Program-made: the position numbers and the translations under genes
Origin: Thermomicrobium sp. CFH 73360
Lineage (GTDB): Bacteria; Chloroflexota; Chloroflexia; Thermomicrobiales; Thermomicrobiaceae
NCBI RefSeq assembly: GCF_023806465.1
Contig: NZ_JAMSLS010000005.1
Span: 62,001 to 126,000, forward strand
Direction: 5' to 3'
Length of the DNA stretch: 64,000 nucleotides
Notes under the pieces: model-generated
Database searches by the model: none
What the model was told of the DNA's origin: nothing
What the model saw: the letters and a program-made list of their open reading frames with translations, nothing else
Shown: positions 8,968 through 16,199 of the stretch, piece after piece
How positions within the stretch are numbered: the stretch's first letter is position 1
How the letters are laid out: every line of letters starts with the position of its first letter

Positions 8968-9771
8968 GTGAGCGGTATTGTCCTCTTCTATGCCCTGAAC
9001 CGCGTCCTGCAAGCGACTCAAAATCCGAATTTTGTCCCCACGCTGCTCGTTCTCGGTGCCTTCCTCGTGCCGGTTGTCCTAGTTCTCTGGGTCTACGAGC
9101 ACCCACTCCCCGAGCCGATCCCCGCGAGTCCGGTCGTCTGGAATTTCCTCTGGGGTGGTGCGCTCGGCGTCATCGTCGCCGGCACGCTGGAATACGATAC
9201 CTATCGGGCACTCGGCGTTCTCCCGCTCCTCGCCGTCGGCTTCATTGAGGGGTCGGCCAAGCTGCTCGTGTCCATTGTCTTTTTCCTCGGCTGGCGATAC
9301 CGGTCGGAGATGGCTGGACTCTTGTTTGGATTGGCAAGCGGAATGGGATTCGCCTCACTGGAGACACTCGGATACGGCTTTACGGCGCTTCTCGCCTCAC
9401 GTGGAAACATAGGCTTGGCTGAGTTTGTCCTACTCGTTCGTGGCCTTCTCTCTCCGGCAGGTCATGCGGCCTGGACTGCACTCGTGGCCTCCGCCCTCTG
9501 GCGGGAGCGCGCTCGTCACGGCCATGCCGGGCTGATCCGGGCGACGCTTGGTGCATTCCTCCTCGCCGTGGCCTTGCACACCCTTTGGGACACGTTCCAG
9601 ATCATGAGTAGTGCGACTTTCGTCGATTGGCTCGGGGTCGAGCTGGTTAGCGGATTTATCGCCCTGCTCAGCATCACGTTGCTCGTCCGCCGCTATCGCG
9701 AGGCACGGCGTCAGGCTGTGGCCGCCGCCAGTGCCGCCAACGGATCCCACCGGAACGGATCGCCTTCGTAG
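8968..9771 (+). CDS. PrsW family intramembrane metalloprotease-like protein
   Basis: A multi-spanning membrane protein of 267 residues from GTG 8968. PrsW-family landmarks are visible: FIEGSAKLLV (the first-Glu/Lys motif, with Gly for the usual second Glu), GMGFASLETLGYG (FAxxE), GHAAWTAL (HxxW) and LHTLWD (HxxWD). PrsW proteins cleave membrane anti-sigma factors or related substrates. The coding character continues upstream of 8968 in the same frame to 8929 (LLRRAWFQIL) without a start codon. The well-placed ATG 8915 is one base out of frame, so the true N-terminus is uncertain. The 3' end overlaps the convergent thiI gene by 61 bases. Confidence 0.82.
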   Translation: MSGIVLFYALNRVLQATQNPNFVPTLLVLGAFLVPVVLVLWVYEHPLPEPIPASPVVWNFLWGGALGVIVAGTLEYDTYRALGVLPLLAVGFIEGSAKLLVSIVFFLGWRYRSEMAGLLFGLASGMGFASLETLGYGFTALLASRGNIGLAEFVLLVRGLLSPAGHAAWTALVASALWRERARHGHAGLIRATLGAFLLAVALHTLWDTFQIMSSATFVDWLGVELVSGFIALLSITLLVRRYREARRQAVAAASAANGSHRNGSPS

Positions 9772-10934
9772 ACGGTCCGCCGTGCTAGACACCGCTCGAC
9801 GAGTGCGGCCACGTCGTAGGCACGTTCGGCCGCTTCCGCCTGCTCGGTCGTCACGCGGGTCGCCGGATGGAGCGGGACGAAGACCGTGCAGCAGTCGTCG
9901 TCGGGGATACGGGAGACGCGCTCTGTCCCAATCCGCACTGCCTCGGCGATGATCTCGTCCTTATTGTTTCCAACAAGAGGTCGGAGTAACGGAAGATCGG
10001 TCACGGCACCAATCGCCCGCATATTCTCCAACGTCTGCGAGGCGACCTGGCCGAGACTCTCGCCGGTCACAATCGCTCCTGCGCCTTCCTCTCGGGCAAT
10101 CTCCGTTGCAAGACGCAGCATAAGTCGCCGGTAAAGGACAACTCGCAACGATGCCTCAGCAGCCAACGCGATCTCTCGCTGCGCGTCGCCGATCGGCACG
10201 ATCACCAGGCGGTTGTAGGGTGGCTGATAGCGCGAGAGATGTCGCGCGAGCTCGACGACCTTCTCAATTGAAATCGGTCGTACATACGGATAAGCATGGA
10301 AGTGGACGAAGGTCACAAAGCACCCGCGCTTCATCAGCCGGTAAGCTGCGACTGGCGAGTCGTACCCACCTGACAGGAGCGCAACGACGCGCCCGCTCAC
10401 CCCCATCGGAAGCCCGCCGGGCCCCGGTAACGATTCACCGCTCACCAGTGCTCGATCGTAGAGCACCTCAACTTGGTAGGTAACGTCCGGACGTGTGAGA
10501 TTGACGGGGGCACCAGTCCGCCTCTGCACAAAGCGCCCGAGTTCTCGCTCCAACTCTGGCGAAGTGAGGGGGAATGCCTTGTTTGTCCGCTTGACCCGAA
10601 TGCGGAAGCTTCCCGGCGGTGGTCCCTGGCGCTCCAAGAGTTCGGCTAACCCTTGCTGCATTGCCTCGACGGTCAGCGCCGTCTCGAGACCAAGCGAGAA
10701 GTTCGCCACGCCAAAGACCCAGCGTAGCCGTTCTGCAACTTCCGGCCAAACCGAGGAGTCCTCCAGTCGAATGATGTAGCGCAGTGCGCGCTCTTGGAGG
10801 CGCGAGACGGGAAGATCGCGCAGCGCATAGCGAAGATTCTCGTACAGTGCACGCTTAAAGAAAGGACGGTTCTGCCCCTTCAGCGCCAATTCATGGACAC
10901 GCGCGATGATGAGCGACGTCATCTGTCGGCTCAT
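9711..10934 (-). CDS. thiI: tRNA 4-thiouridine synthetase ThiI (no rhodanese domain)
   Basis: The protein is 407 residues. An N-terminal ferredoxin-like/THUMP region covers about 1-165. An adenylating PP-loop domain follows, with SGGYDSP at 188-194 and later GAIVTGESLGQVASQTLEN. ThiI activates uridine 8 of tRNA for sulfur insertion and may supply sulfur for thiamine. Its length matches the short form that lacks the C-terminal rhodanese domain of E. coli ThiI. It lies 58 bases downstream of the candidate selenoprotein gene and could share its transcript. The tail overlaps the PrsW-like gene on the other strand. Confidence 0.95.
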   Translation of the reverse strand: MSRQMTSLIIARVHELALKGQNRPFFKRALYENLRYALRDLPVSRLQERALRYIIRLEDSSVWPEVAERLRWVFGVANFSLGLETALTVEAMQQGLAELLERQGPPPGSFRIRVKRTNKAFPLTSPELERELGRFVQRRTGAPVNLTRPDVTYQVEVLYDRALVSGESLPGPGGLPMGVSGRVVALLSGGYDSPVAAYRLMKRGCFVTFVHFHAYPYVRPISIEKVVELARHLSRYQPPYNRLVIVPIGDAQREIALAAEASLRVVLYRRLMLRLATEIAREEGAGAIVTGESLGQVASQTLENMRAIGAVTDLPLLRPLVGNNKDEIIAEAVRIGTERVSRIPDDDCCTVFVPLHPATRVTTEQAEAAERAYDVAALVERCLARRTVYEGDPFRWDPLAALAAATA

Positions 10935-10992: not shown

Positions 10993-11241
10993 TCACTCGA
11001 TACCGAGCCGCGCTCCGACGAGCTCGAGGAGTTCAGCGTCTTCCGGGAAGCGCTTCTTCGCCAGCTTGGAGAAGGCCAACTCGCCATCCACCCAGACCTC
11101 AAACCGACCGCCCGACGAGGGAACCAGCGTAATCTCGGCGAACTGGAGTTCGTATCGATCCAGCAGGAGTTCCACCGCACGGGTGGCACGTCCACGATAC
11201 CCTCAACTCGTGCAGTACTCGATGCGAACCTGATGTCCCAC
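10993..11241 (-). CDS. Rdx/SelW-like thioredoxin-fold protein, candidate selenoprotein (in-frame UGA)
   Basis: GTG 11241, with GAAGGGGG four bases upstream, opens a frame of 82 residues if the UGA at 11203-11205 is read as selenocysteine. The product begins VGHQVRIEYCTS-U-GY. Cys10 and Sec13 form exactly the CxxU motif of SelW-type Rdx proteins. The rest fits the family: a helix RATRAVELLLDRYELQ, then EITLVPSSGGRFEVW, DGELAFSK and a final helix. A fragment starting at ATG 11175 would lack the redox motif and first strand. A SECIS-like hairpin lies just after the UGA and a TATAAT box lies upstream. Rdx proteins are thiol/selenol oxidoreductases of uncertain partner. The alternative is a Cys-to-stop mutation or sequence error. 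Confidence 0.78.
11166..11193 (-). promoter_or_regulatory. Putative bacterial SECIS hairpin
   Basis: Counting from the base after UGA, bases 10-37 fold into a hairpin. GGA, a bulged C, GU, a G/A mismatch and CCACC pair with GGUGG and ACUCC. The apical loop is CGUGC (bases 22-26), with G in its second position. Position, stem and loop G fit what is known of bacterial SECIS elements, which sit inside the coding region directly after the UGA. Drawn by eye; no folding energy computed. Confidence 0.55.
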
Positions 11242-11271
11242 TGTACCCCCTTCGAAGTCTCCAAGTGAGCC

Positions 11272-11277
11272 ATTATA
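11272..11277 (-). promoter_or_regulatory. -10 box TATAAT of candidate selenoprotein gene
   Basis: A perfect TATAAT on the minus strand ends 30 bases before the GTG start at 11241. No good -35 hexamer is visible 16-18 bases upstream. It indicates independent transcription of the Rdx gene, and possibly thiI, rather than readthrough from the lipoprotein gene. Confidence 0.5.
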
Positions 11278-11325
11278 CCCTTCTCCTGGGGAGGGAATCC
11301 TCACCCAGCGAGGGTGCCCTCTGCC

Positions 11326-12474
11326 TCACCGTGCTGACGGCGCAGCGCAGGCTGTCGCGCCTGCCGGTTCAAGCGTGGCACAGTTCTGTGCATGCACTGC
11401 CTCTTGCAGCACAGCGAGCTCGGCGTGAATCGAGACTACCCGACCAAGCTCTGGCGGTGGGCCTTCACAGTGCAACGCGTCTGCACTCCATCCACACCCC
11501 CAGCGGTTATCACTCACGACTGGTGGAGCTTGCATGCGCATCCCCAATGGCAAAAGGTCACTCACCACCACGGCCGACCAGCGCGACACGCAGCCCTCGG
11601 GACCGGCATTCTGTACTCTGATGCGGAGTGTCGCTCTCCATCGTGGCGTGGTACTGAATTCCTCACCAAGCTGAATCGCCTTCTCGAACCCAAACAGACA
11701 AGTGACTGGCGTTAGCGTGGCTGTCGGAGTGGGTAGCAGAGCACTCAAAGACACGCACCGCGCATCGTTCGCGGGGTCAGTATCTCCACTGACAGTAACG
11801 CGGGCACAATTCTCAAGCATTACGCCCGGTTCCACTGCTGCTGTGAAAACGAAATTGGCTGCATAACCAGGTGCCAGACTCTCCCCCGCGGTGCATGTTG
11901 TCCCGACGCAGTGCCAACCGCCCTGCCCACCCACTTCTGTCACCTGAACCTCAGCAAGCTGCCGCATTCCAACGGGCAGAGGATCGCTGACAACTGCGCC
12001 AGGAGAGCAGCTCCCGCTCCCCTGATTCCGCACTGTCAGGGTCACCACGACATTCGTCGTGCCAACCTGTTGGAACAACGACTTCTCCAGGGTGAGGTCA
12101 CAGTAGCCTGCGGGTGTCGCTGGTGGAGGCGGTGGCTCGGTTGGTGTTGCCGTGGGCTGTCCTCGCGGTGGGATTCCGGGGGATGGAGTCGGAATCGATG
12201 GCTGCTCGGCCGCCACGGTCGCAGTGCTGGCCGGTGTCCCCCCCGGGACGACGAGCGTTAGCTCCGGGGTAAACGTTGGCACAGCCGTCGGACTCGGGAA
12301 CGGTGTCGGGCGATTTGACGATTGCGTTGGGCTCCCGAAATCTGCTGTGCCGGTCGGCGTCGACACTGGTCCGATCGTTACGGGCGGCGTGTCACGGGCA
12401 ATCAGTCTCCCCTCACACGCCGCCAGCAGGAAGGTCAGCAGCATGACAGTGAGGAAACGCACTCCCGTGTTCAT
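11326..12474 (-). CDS. Surface lipoprotein with two DUF11-like repeats
   Basis: About 382 residues from ATG 12474; GTG 12492 is an alternative start. Signal peptide and lipobox (LTFLLAAC) put the lipid-modified Cys at residue 20. A Thr/Pro-rich linker of about 90 residues follows, then two beta-sandwich repeats. Each opens with C-x-L/F-x-x-x-K and carries NQGSGSC or NAGPEGC and a W-x-C-x-G motif, as in DUF11-type adhesive repeats. The cysteines are paired in each repeat, suggesting disulfides outside the cell. It is the last of three related lipoprotein genes on this strand. Probable role in the cell envelope; no enzyme motif. Confidence 0.75.
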   Translation of the reverse strand: MNTGVRFLTVMLLTFLLAACEGRLIARDTPPVTIGPVSTPTGTADFGSPTQSSNRPTPFPSPTAVPTFTPELTLVVPGGTPASTATVAAEQPSIPTPSPGIPPRGQPTATPTEPPPPPATPAGYCDLTLEKSLFQQVGTTNVVVTLTVRNQGSGSCSPGAVVSDPLPVGMRQLAEVQVTEVGGQGGWHCVGTTCTAGESLAPGYAANFVFTAAVEPGVMLENCARVTVSGDTDPANDARCVSLSALLPTPTATLTPVTCLFGFEKAIQLGEEFSTTPRWRATLRIRVQNAGPEGCVSRWSAVVVSDLLPLGMRMQAPPVVSDNRWGCGWSADALHCEGPPPELGRVVSIHAELAVLQEAVHAQNCATLEPAGATACAAPSAR

Positions 12475-12651
12475 CCGAGCCCTGCTTGTCACCCGATTCC
12501 TGTACTCAGATTGCTTCCGGAACGCACACCTCCACCCACATCATCTTGGCAATGATACTGTGTCGCCTCGCGACGGTCGCAAGAAGGTGAACTCCACAGC
12601 ACCCAACCGTACCAACCCTCCAGGGATCTCTCAAAAGGCAGGTATCCAGCT

Positions 12652-14181
12652 TCACTGCACGGTCACGCAAAAGACATTGTTCCCTGGCGTTGGATCTTGC
12701 ACGCCGGGGAGAAACGCCCGCACGCAGTTGGTCGCTGGCTTCTGAGTGACTGTTGCCGTGAAGGCGAACTGCACAGCCGATCCTGGCGCCAGTGTGCTCG
12801 TTGACGTGCAGGTCCCTCCTGAACCAGAGATGGTGCAGCTCCAACCACCGGGCGGCGTAACAGTCAACGGCCCACTGAACGTCATCGCTCCTTGGCTCAC
12901 AAAGTCCGTGACCTGTACCCCCGCAGGGCACGGACCGCTCCCCTGATTCGAGACGAAGAGGATGACGGTATAGACCCCAGGCTGGTTCGTCGGCTGCATC
13001 ACCTTATCGACAACAAGATCACAAATGCCGCTCGGTGTGGGCGTCGGCTGTGGTGTCGGCGTGGCAGTGGGCACCAGTGTCGCCGTTGGAGTGGGCGTCG
13101 GCTGTGGTGTCGGCGTGGCAGTGGGCACCAGTGTCGCCGTTGGAGTGGGCGTCGGCTGTGGTGTCGGCGTGGCAGTGGGCACCAGTGTCGCCGTTGGAGT
13201 GGGCGTCGGCTGTGGCGTCGGTGAGGGAGGCGGCACTGGTGTCGCGGTCGGTGTGGGACTCGGGGCCGGCGTGGCCGTTGCCGTTGGCAAGGGAGTCGGT
13301 GTCGAAGTTGGCAGCGGGACCACGGTGACCGCTGACCCACCAGGGCTCTTCTTTGGTGTCGGTGTTGGTGTGGGTAGCGGCTTTGGAGTCCACTGAAGGA
13401 CGACTGTGGGAGGAATGACGATTGTCGGCGAAGGAGAACCAGCGGTATCCGTATCGATCGCCGTCGCCGGGCCGTGTGGAGTCGCCAAACCAGCAGTTGG
13501 CACCGGTACTTTCGTTGGTGTCGGGGCCGGTGCCGGCACACACACAACGAGGGTCAGCGATAAGACCTCGGTGCTGTCATGAACTTCGATATCAAGTTCA
13601 CCATACGTATTCAGATCAGCCAGTGGCACACTCGTCGAGCTTATCGGACTCCAGCCATTCGCTGTGATCATGCTGTATCCCCCCATGGTCACTTGCACGA
13701 AGTTTGGAACAGTGCTTGCTGTCCAGGGGGATCCAAGAATAGAGGAGAACTGCCACCCGTCCGTTATGACAGACGGGTAAAGATGGTAGCGGATACGGAT
13801 ACCGTCATCCGAAGCTGCCCACGTAGCGATCGGACGAGCAACAACGGTTACCCAGTAGTAGACCACCGAACCAGCGCCCGGAATATTGGTGAATGTATGG
13901 AGCACCAGCTTGCCCGGCGCCGCTGGACTGGTCGGGAGCTGCGTGTAGTGCGGTGGATTGTTCAGGTCGCTAACCAGCTGCGGCCGTGGTTGTAACGGCC
14001 CCGGGCCAACGGTCATTGACAGTGGAGTCGCTCCGGGCGGGCAACTTGCCTGCGGCCCAACGATCGGGACCGTCGGGGTCGGTGTTGCCAGTGACCCACC
14101 TCCCAGCCAGCCGCACGCACCCAAGATGAATGCGATGGTCAGACCTGCCACAGCAAAGCCCCATGACCATGGCTGTTTCAT
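12652..14181 (-). CDS. Surface lipoprotein with PT-rich tandem repeats and DUF11-like domain
   Basis: 509 residues from ATG 14181, chosen because GGGGGG precedes it at 5 bases; the frame is open upstream without protein character. Signal peptide ends at the lipobox FILGAC. An N-terminal globular domain of about 200 residues follows, with [20 protein letters not shown] near its end. A Pro/Thr-rich stalk comes next, with near-identical 18-residue repeats. The C-terminus (CDLVVDKVM onward, with NQGSGPC and [13 protein letters not shown]) is a DUF11-like domain shared with the neighbouring gene. The architecture is that of a lipid-anchored surface protein displaying domains on a rigid stalk. Confidence 0.78.
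13037..13252. repeat. 54-bp tandem repeat (three perfect units plus a degenerate fourth)
   Basis: Units begin at 13037, 13091 and 13145 with exact 54-base spacing; a diverged fourth spans 13199-13252. Read on the minus strand each encodes the 18-residue unit [18 protein letters not shown] in the lipoprotein stalk. The in-frame period means copy number can change without breaking the gene. Confidence 0.95.
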
Positions 14182-14445
14182 GTCATCCCCCCAGGTTTGG
14201 TGAAGTCGTCCATTCCTGCTCTGCTCAGCGAAAATCGCAGCACTTCGACCAGGAGGCTTGGTCATGGAGCGATGTGCCTCGATCTCCCGCGTGTGCAGAG
14301 ACGAATGGCCTTCTTGCCAGCTTTCCTCTGTATTGGCGGTTCGACGCCCCCTAAAATGGCTCCCACTCGTACGAATCAAAGCCGAAACGCTTGAGGTTCA
14401 AAGGCGCACATCGAGCAGTCGCAGGAAGCGTCGAGTACTCTGCAT

Positions 14446-15291
14446 TCACCCCCTTTCCATCGTCAAGCAGCGAGCATCATGAGCACCCCACGGCAACATC
14501 TCGCACCAGGTATCGTTCATTGGGTTACCATCGCCCGTGTTTGCCACTGTAGCACAAAGCGTGATTGTGCCATTGAAAGTTCCCATTGCCTGAAAGCCCA
14601 CCTGATACTGGGAAGCGAGAGGATTTCCAAGCAAGCCATTGACTGCCCCGCAGCTCGTACCCGTGCACGACCAGCATCCCGTGCCGTTGTCCTCGTACGC
14701 CGCACCCAAAGCGCCCAGCGCCGGTGATCCGGGAGGGTTTATGGCAAATTTCACCGTGGCCCCCGTCGGGCAGAAGCCACCACCAACATTCTCAAGCCCT
14801 ACCCTAATCGCGTCGATTCCCGGAACAGTCTCTAACAGCTCGATGTTCACTGCACGATCGCACGCAGCGCCTGTTGGACTCACGGAGGTGTCGCCGCTTG
14901 ATGGTGAGGTAGCCGTGGGCGAGAGAGTCGGCGACGGCGTTAACGTCGGGGTCATCGTCGCAGGCGTAGCTAGGACTACCCGCCAGGTTGTCAACGCAGG
15001 TGTCACGGGTGCAGTTGACGCCGCCGGAACGGTCGTGGTCACACTGATTGTGGCATCCGAGGCACTCGATCTCGTCGGGGTGGGCGGACTCCCACTGGGA
15101 GTAACCAAGAAGGACGAGCCGGCCTTCGGCACCACCGTGCGGTCTCCACGAGGGCTCGCTGCGGTCGGTGAGGCTCGCTTCAAATCCGCCGCAGGCCCAG
15201 ACATCGTTGAACACGCTGAACCGCCACACGCTGTAAAACCAACAAGATGAAGGAGCGCGACCGCACGCGAGCAAGCAACCGACAACTGCAT
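14446..15291 (-). CDS. Secreted/lipoprotein-like protein with DUF11-like C-terminus
   Basis: 281 residues from ATG 15291, with GGAGG about 10 bases upstream. The N-terminus is hydrophobic with Cys at FTACGG, consistent with a lipoprotein, though the lipobox is imperfect. A long Ser/Thr/Pro linker (about residues 30-130) leads to one folded domain with RAVNIELLETVPG, NVGGGFCPTG and CWSCTGTSCGA, the pattern of its two downstream neighbours. It appears to be the first of a tandem family of three, transcribed toward lower coordinates. Function unknown beyond an envelope location. Confidence 0.7.
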   Translation of the reverse strand: MQLSVACSRAVALLHLVGFTACGGSACSTMSGPAADLKRASPTAASPRGDRTVVPKAGSSFLVTPSGSPPTPTRSSASDATISVTTTVPAASTAPVTPALTTWRVVLATPATMTPTLTPSPTLSPTATSPSSGDTSVSPTGAACDRAVNIELLETVPGIDAIRVGLENVGGGFCPTGATVKFAINPPGSPALGALGAAYEDNGTGCWSCTGTSCGAVNGLLGNPLASQYQVGFQAMGTFNGTITLCATVANTGDGNPMNDTWCEMLPWGAHDARCLTMERG

Positions 15292-16199
15292 CTTGCACGA
15301 CCTCCTCGTCTTTCGGCGCCCTTCGCATCGCGGTCGCGTCACGTTGTGCGCCGAAAACCTTGCCTCTCTCGGTAACACGAACCTATGGCCGCTCCAACAC
15401 CCCAGTGACAGGACGATCGTAACTCAGCTTCTCTATCTGCCCGCCAGAGACCCTCAAGGATACTTTCAGCACGCCACCCTTACGCGACGGAGCAGTCTTG
15501 CTTCGTAGACGAAGAAACCACCGGTATAGCGCCAACAAAGAGTACCTCCTGCTCCCAGCCCACGGACCATCAGCATCGGGAGCCACTCGTGCAGCTTCGT
15601 CTATCAACGCTTGATTCCCTGCAGCATGGGCCCACCTCCCAACAGCACGTGCAATGCTCAAACGCTCTGCACCGTCCTGGTCTCTGTCGCTCACGCCCGC
15701 ACCGACTGTCCGCCCACACTCTCTTCGGATCAGGTCCGTCAACTTTGGCGCGCCTACGAGCGGATCCTGACAGAACCACTGCTGCGCTTTTCACCCCTTT
15801 CAACGTTGGAGGAGGCCCAACGCTTACAAGCCCGCACGAGCCGAGGAGTGAGCCACCTGTCGCATCCCTGAGGAGTACGCTCTCGCAGCGACACGCTGCT
15901 TTATTCCCCGCCGGGAAAACCGCCGGTCATGAGCTGCATTTCTTCACAGCAGCTTCCTTACCCCCGACAAGAGAGCCGTCACAGCGACCTGCTTCTGGGT
16001 CTGTGCGGGGAGCAAAGAAGAGGTCCCACTCGGCGATATCTCGCCTGCCAGCGCCAAGGAAGGGCCATGAATCGGCCTGGACGCCGATGTTGACAGAGTG
16101 ACCACGGAAGACAGGGACCGTCCCGGTACGGGGCGCTGCTGCTCTTGGGCAACACCGCACAAAGGCGAATCCGTTCGCAGGCTTTATCGGAACTCGGGT
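15292..16199. other. 900-base stretch without recognisable gene
   Basis: Lies between the lipoprotein genes and the sigma factor gene. Frames of 70-170 residues exist on both strands but none has the composition or motifs of a real protein, and I see no remnant of a fourth lipoprotein. The left end carries the ribosome site of the gene ending at 14446. Confidence 0.45.

Follow-up and report, generated by a model that had tools for sequence, protein, structure and literature searches.

Bacterial selenoproteins of the SelW-like type have been known since 2005-2006. Among the selenoproteins of the Sargasso Sea set they are the most abundant family (PMC1088965). They are also known from Deltaproteobacteria, Clostridia and Symbiobacterium, and Cys forms are very few in organisms that use Sec (PMC1794560). 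In Epsilonproteobacteria these selenoproteins were overlooked by annotation (PMC4607533), and for SelW of Campylobacter jejuni (CJnc60) Ribo-seq and mass spectrometry showed that translation continues past the Sec site to full length (PMC11955535). Here we analyse a candidate gene of this type in a 64,000-nucleotide stretch of DNA from Thermomicrobium sp. CFH 73360 (the window), which comes from a 3.06-Mb genome of the Thermomicrobium group that is 99.67% complete. We consider it highly probable (about 0.97) that this gene encodes a selenocysteine-containing SelW-like (Rdx) protein with a thioredoxin fold, as predicted by the comparative data below.

The Rdx reading frame and its annotation

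Translation of the minus strand from 11241 to 10993 gives (V/M)GHQVRIEYCTS-UGA-GYRGRATRAVELLLDRYELQFAEITLVPSSGGRFEVWVDGELAFSKLAKKRFPEDAELLELVGARLGIE-UGA. The frame has one internal stop, the TGA at 11205-11203, which occupies the second redox position (CTS-U); the minus-strand sequence thus confirms the single UGA that the original prediction had placed in the redox motif, IEYCTS-UGA-GY. The family pattern had also been said to continue after this codon and, with the TGA read through, the Pfam Rdx match (PF10262) does run across it (E 1.2e-23, model positions 1-72 of 74, positions 18-89 of the translated query P0001). The 82-aa protein belongs to the broader family TIGR02174 of NCBIfam (SelT/SelW/SelH; above cut-off, E 7.3e-19), and the top-scoring named family, NF041051 SelTWH_Campy, matches at 79.7 bits, below its curated cut-off of 88. 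Solved structures of the Rdx family (e.g. 3dex SAV_2001, 2fa8 Atu0228 and 2obk) match the protein by sequence.

The coordinates of the features are collected below. The ribosome site that had been attributed to the gene was found ahead of the GTG start, and purine-rich sites likewise precede the start in close relatives. The TATAAT box named in the original prediction is also present, but the promoter scan around the gene found no consensus sigma-70 -35/-10 pair, and its role as a promoter is therefore unproven. The terminator scan around the gene found none.

Features of the Rdx locus in the window
Feature	Position	Strand	Description
selW-like (Rdx) selenoprotein gene, predicted	10993..11241	-	82 aa; GTG start 11241-11239; terminal TGA 10995-10993
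In-frame TGA, predicted Sec codon	11203..11205	-	Residue 13, CxxU motif; Cys is residue 10
Ribosome-binding site region	11243..11254	-	GAAGGGGG, AGGGGG-type, 5' of GTG start; read from sequence
TATAAT, possible -10 element	11270..11278	-	~30 bp upstream; recurs as TATAAT/TATACT in several close relatives
Bacterial SECIS hairpin core	11172..11186	-	CCACC-[CGUGC loop]-GGUGG; from conservation
60-aa remnant from standard-code reading	10993..11175	-	GTG start in 3' arm of SECIS hairpin
thiI (tRNA 4-thiouridine/thiamine sulfurtransferase)	9711..10934	-	Pfam ThiI 1.6e-64, ThiI_fer, THUMP; directly downstream

The ortholog of Thermomicrobium roseum DSM 5159, on the 918-kb plasmid NC_011961.1, is entered in the annotation as WP_012642931.1, an Rdx family protein of 60 aa whose GTG start is the codon in the SECIS 3' arm, with the EYCTSUGY N-terminus lying upstream. 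The 60-aa frame of the window is the same artefact, as anticipated for a UGA mistaken for a stop, and the N-terminal redox half is missing from public annotation in at least T. roseum. Portions of the window match NC_011961.1, and the contig may therefore be part of a comparable second replicon.

Homologues and the SECIS hairpin

To compare homologues we used 61 genomes, including that of the window, and read the codon in every TGA homologue. An Rdx homologue with a TGA is present in 42 of the 61 (41 relatives and the genome itself), always at the CxxU position, and Cys (TGC/TGT) occupies the same column in six other homologues, so that the alignment agrees with the Sec or Cys expected there. 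The frame and the CxxU motif upstream of the TGA are kept in all 42 genomes, and homologues from Gemmatimonadota and Latescibacterota carry the TGA too. Genes for selA and/or selB were above the curated cut-off in 42/42 TGA genomes and in 9/19 of the others (Fisher p ~1e-6); TGA genomes lacking one of the two may be incomplete. No Rdx match, and neither selA nor selB above cut-off, was found in the four genomes of genus g12, of which two are >90% complete. Within the genus, the substitutions 3' of the TGA number 120, 83 and 438 at codon positions 1, 2 and 3, and such a third-position excess is expected where purifying selection acts on a coding sequence.

Some genomes of the order hold Sec and Cys Rdx paralogues together (G023, G024 and G050; L067, L080, L066, L074, L069 and L071), and one of them, G050, has two tandem Sec copies ~50 bp apart.

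A survey of the phylum found an Rdx match in 138 of 301 genomes, and roughly two thirds of the matches listed hold one TGA (counted by hand, its position not read). SelW-like selenoproteins are thus a general, conserved trait of the Thermomicrobium group and are probably present in much of the phylum. The suggestion that such a protein would be a rarity was not upheld, since Sec-Rdx is a known bacterial family (PMC1088965, PMC1794560) and looks common in Chloroflexota.

Analysis of the sequence 3' of the TGA revealed a conserved SECIS-like hairpin that the original prediction did not mention. It has a 5-bp core, 21 nt between the UGA and the apical loop, a G at loop position 2 and an MFE of about -13 kcal/mol, in agreement with the bSECIS model (PMC13188914), which asks for a loop of 3-9 nt with a G within its first two positions, a stem of 4 bp or more and a spacing of 16-37 nt from the UGA. 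No Rfam families were found in the window. As a single sequence the fold is no more stable than shuffles (z ~ +0.5), and the support for the hairpin rests on conservation, not on single-sequence stability. Across the 31 distinct homologues compared, each of the 155 pair cells is filled by a standard pair (100%), two of the five pairs show changes on both sides (A-U/G-C and C-G/U-A), and the covariation score was reached by 0 of 500 shuffles. When the partner was slid by 1-3 columns as a control, at most 61% of the cells paired and no double changes were seen. The C-G to U-A change occurs in G009 (family f1) and separately in the Gemmatimonadota/Latescibacterota group, indicating that it probably arose more than once. 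The five pairs are intact in all further TGA homologues (in G030 by inspection), and one or more of them is broken in six of the six Cys homologues read. The covarying positions also alter amino acids (for example Thr/Ala and Val/Ala), so that constraint on the protein cannot be told apart completely from constraint on the RNA, and the comparative counts are inflated by relatedness; the RNA reading is much the better of the two, because the Cys homologues break the pairs.

Sec-decoding genes and alternative readings

The original prediction proposed that the host decodes Sec and named in advance the genes to be sought. All of them are present in the genome: selA (541.8 bits), selB (361.8 bits), selD (358.7 bits) and a tRNA-Sec gene (74.7 bits, cut-off 47; ARAGORN anticodon UCA; L001:1500-1593, G000:C33). 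The selD gene (L014:1501-2546, G000:C1) has its own in-frame TGA, within SCAGUAGK, with a hairpin 3' of it, and is predicted to encode a selenoprotein itself. Two FDH-alpha-like genes (L057, G000:C23; L058, G000:C12) carry an in-frame TGA within the motif NQARIUHSS, and 3' of it in both genes lies a strong GGUCU-loop hairpin. Counting the Rdx gene, this brings the candidate selenoprotein genes of the genome to at least four. Beside the tRNA-Sec gene, a tyrosine recombinase gene (Phage_integrase; L001:7-1443, G000:C33) ends ~55 bp away, which suggests an integrated element whose attachment site is selC.

These data demonstrate the reading frame and its homology, the presence of the decoding machinery, the conservation of the hairpin and the phylogenetic pattern. 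In the mechanism that we propose, the ribosome would initiate at GTG 11241 and SelB:GTP:Sec-tRNA-Sec would dock on the hairpin just 3' of the UGA, placing selenocysteine as residue 13 to give a CxxU redox centre whose thiol and selenol could close to a selenenylsulfide, and translation would continue to the terminal UGA at 10995-10993. That Sec is inserted, that the protein is redox-active and that it acts as a small thiol/selenol oxidoreductase are predictions drawn from the sequence.

Three other readings were weighed against the comparative data and rejected. The TGA could be a true stop, with the 60-aa frame from the GTG at 11175 encoding an independent short Rdx-like protein, as the public annotation of T. 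roseum has it; this frame by itself does match Pfam Rdx (E 9.6e-14), but only at model positions 22-72, and it lacks the redox motif as well as the beginning of the domain, while the upstream frame and its CxxU are kept in every one of the TGA genomes and the supposed start sits in a hairpin arm without a ribosome site of its own. We regard this reading as extremely improbable. That the TGA reflects a sequencing error, or a nonsense mutation that arose recently in a TGC/TGT Cys codon and left a pseudogene, has an almost negligible probability: a TGA is one base from a Cys codon and the Cys form is present in relatives, but independent genomes across one order share the TGA at this codon, a homologue with a TGA is found in much of the phylum, and the purifying selection 3' of it, the conserved SECIS and the decoding machinery all argue against a lesion.

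Conservation of the frame, taken alone, demands readthrough only, and would be equally served by suppression of the UGA with another amino acid such as Trp or Cys. Against insertion of such a residue stand the full selA/selB/selD/tRNA-Sec set, the restriction of the SECIS-like hairpin to TGA homologues, the use of Cys as the alternative residue at this column and the use of UGA as the terminal stop of the same gene, which make it very unlikely. A selenocysteine at residue 13 is the reading that we retain.

The thiI neighbourhood and known SelW-like proteins

In the nearest family, thiI lies on the same contig and strand as the Rdx gene, 86-858 bp away, in 18 of 18 Rdx-bearing genomes. The gap is 750-858 bp in six of the 18, and both long-gap genomes examined (G007 and G019, from two genera) have an opposite-strand response-regulator gene inside it. 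A shared operon is therefore not general, and for part of the family we reject a strict selW-thiI operon. There are other families in the order that have Sec-Rdx but no thiI above cut-off. Since the operon is not general and Sec-Rdx occurs elsewhere without thiI, we treat a functional link between Rdx and ThiI as a lead only. A search of the literature found nothing on ThiI together with SelW, and the conserved, not strictly operonic linkage is apparently unreported.

To our knowledge, no cellular partner of bacterial SelW-like proteins has been established, and the conserved thiI neighbour offers one candidate that can be tested directly. It is conceivable, though unlikely, that Sec-Rdx is a dedicated reductant of ThiI that recycles the disulfide or persulfide of its catalytic Cys during tRNA 4-thiouridine synthesis; such a role, if true, would account for the adjoining of the two genes throughout the family. 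No match to a rhodanese domain was found in the ThiI of the window. On the other side of the Rdx gene, a run of genes on the minus strand from 11326 to 15378 encodes proline/threonine-rich proteins; two of these have DUF11 domains and one has a repetitive 18-residue stretch near 13000-13400.

The Thermomicrobium gene resembles the bacterial SelW-like set (Sargasso Sea, Geobacter, Desulfotalea and Symbiobacterium; PMC1088965, PMC1794560) in its Rdx domain, its CxxU with an in-frame UGA, the bacterial SECIS directly 3' of this codon and the Sec machinery of its genome, and differs from it in lineage (Thermomicrobium group, Chloroflexota) and in the thiI neighbourhood. The structure aligned, 3dex, has Cys where the Thermomicrobium protein has its predicted Sec. 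In the parts of the open-licence literature available to us, no description of a Sec-Rdx gene in Thermomicrobium was found. SelW of C. jejuni is likewise a SelW protein of ~80 aa, with a UGA for tRNA-Sec, that was overlooked by annotation; it has been seen as a protein, and the Thermomicrobium one is predicted from its gene. Since SelW-like selenoproteins have been known since the first reports and the C. jejuni protein has been detected, the gene is a new, well-supported example of the known bacterial SelW-like selenoproteins and not a new kind.
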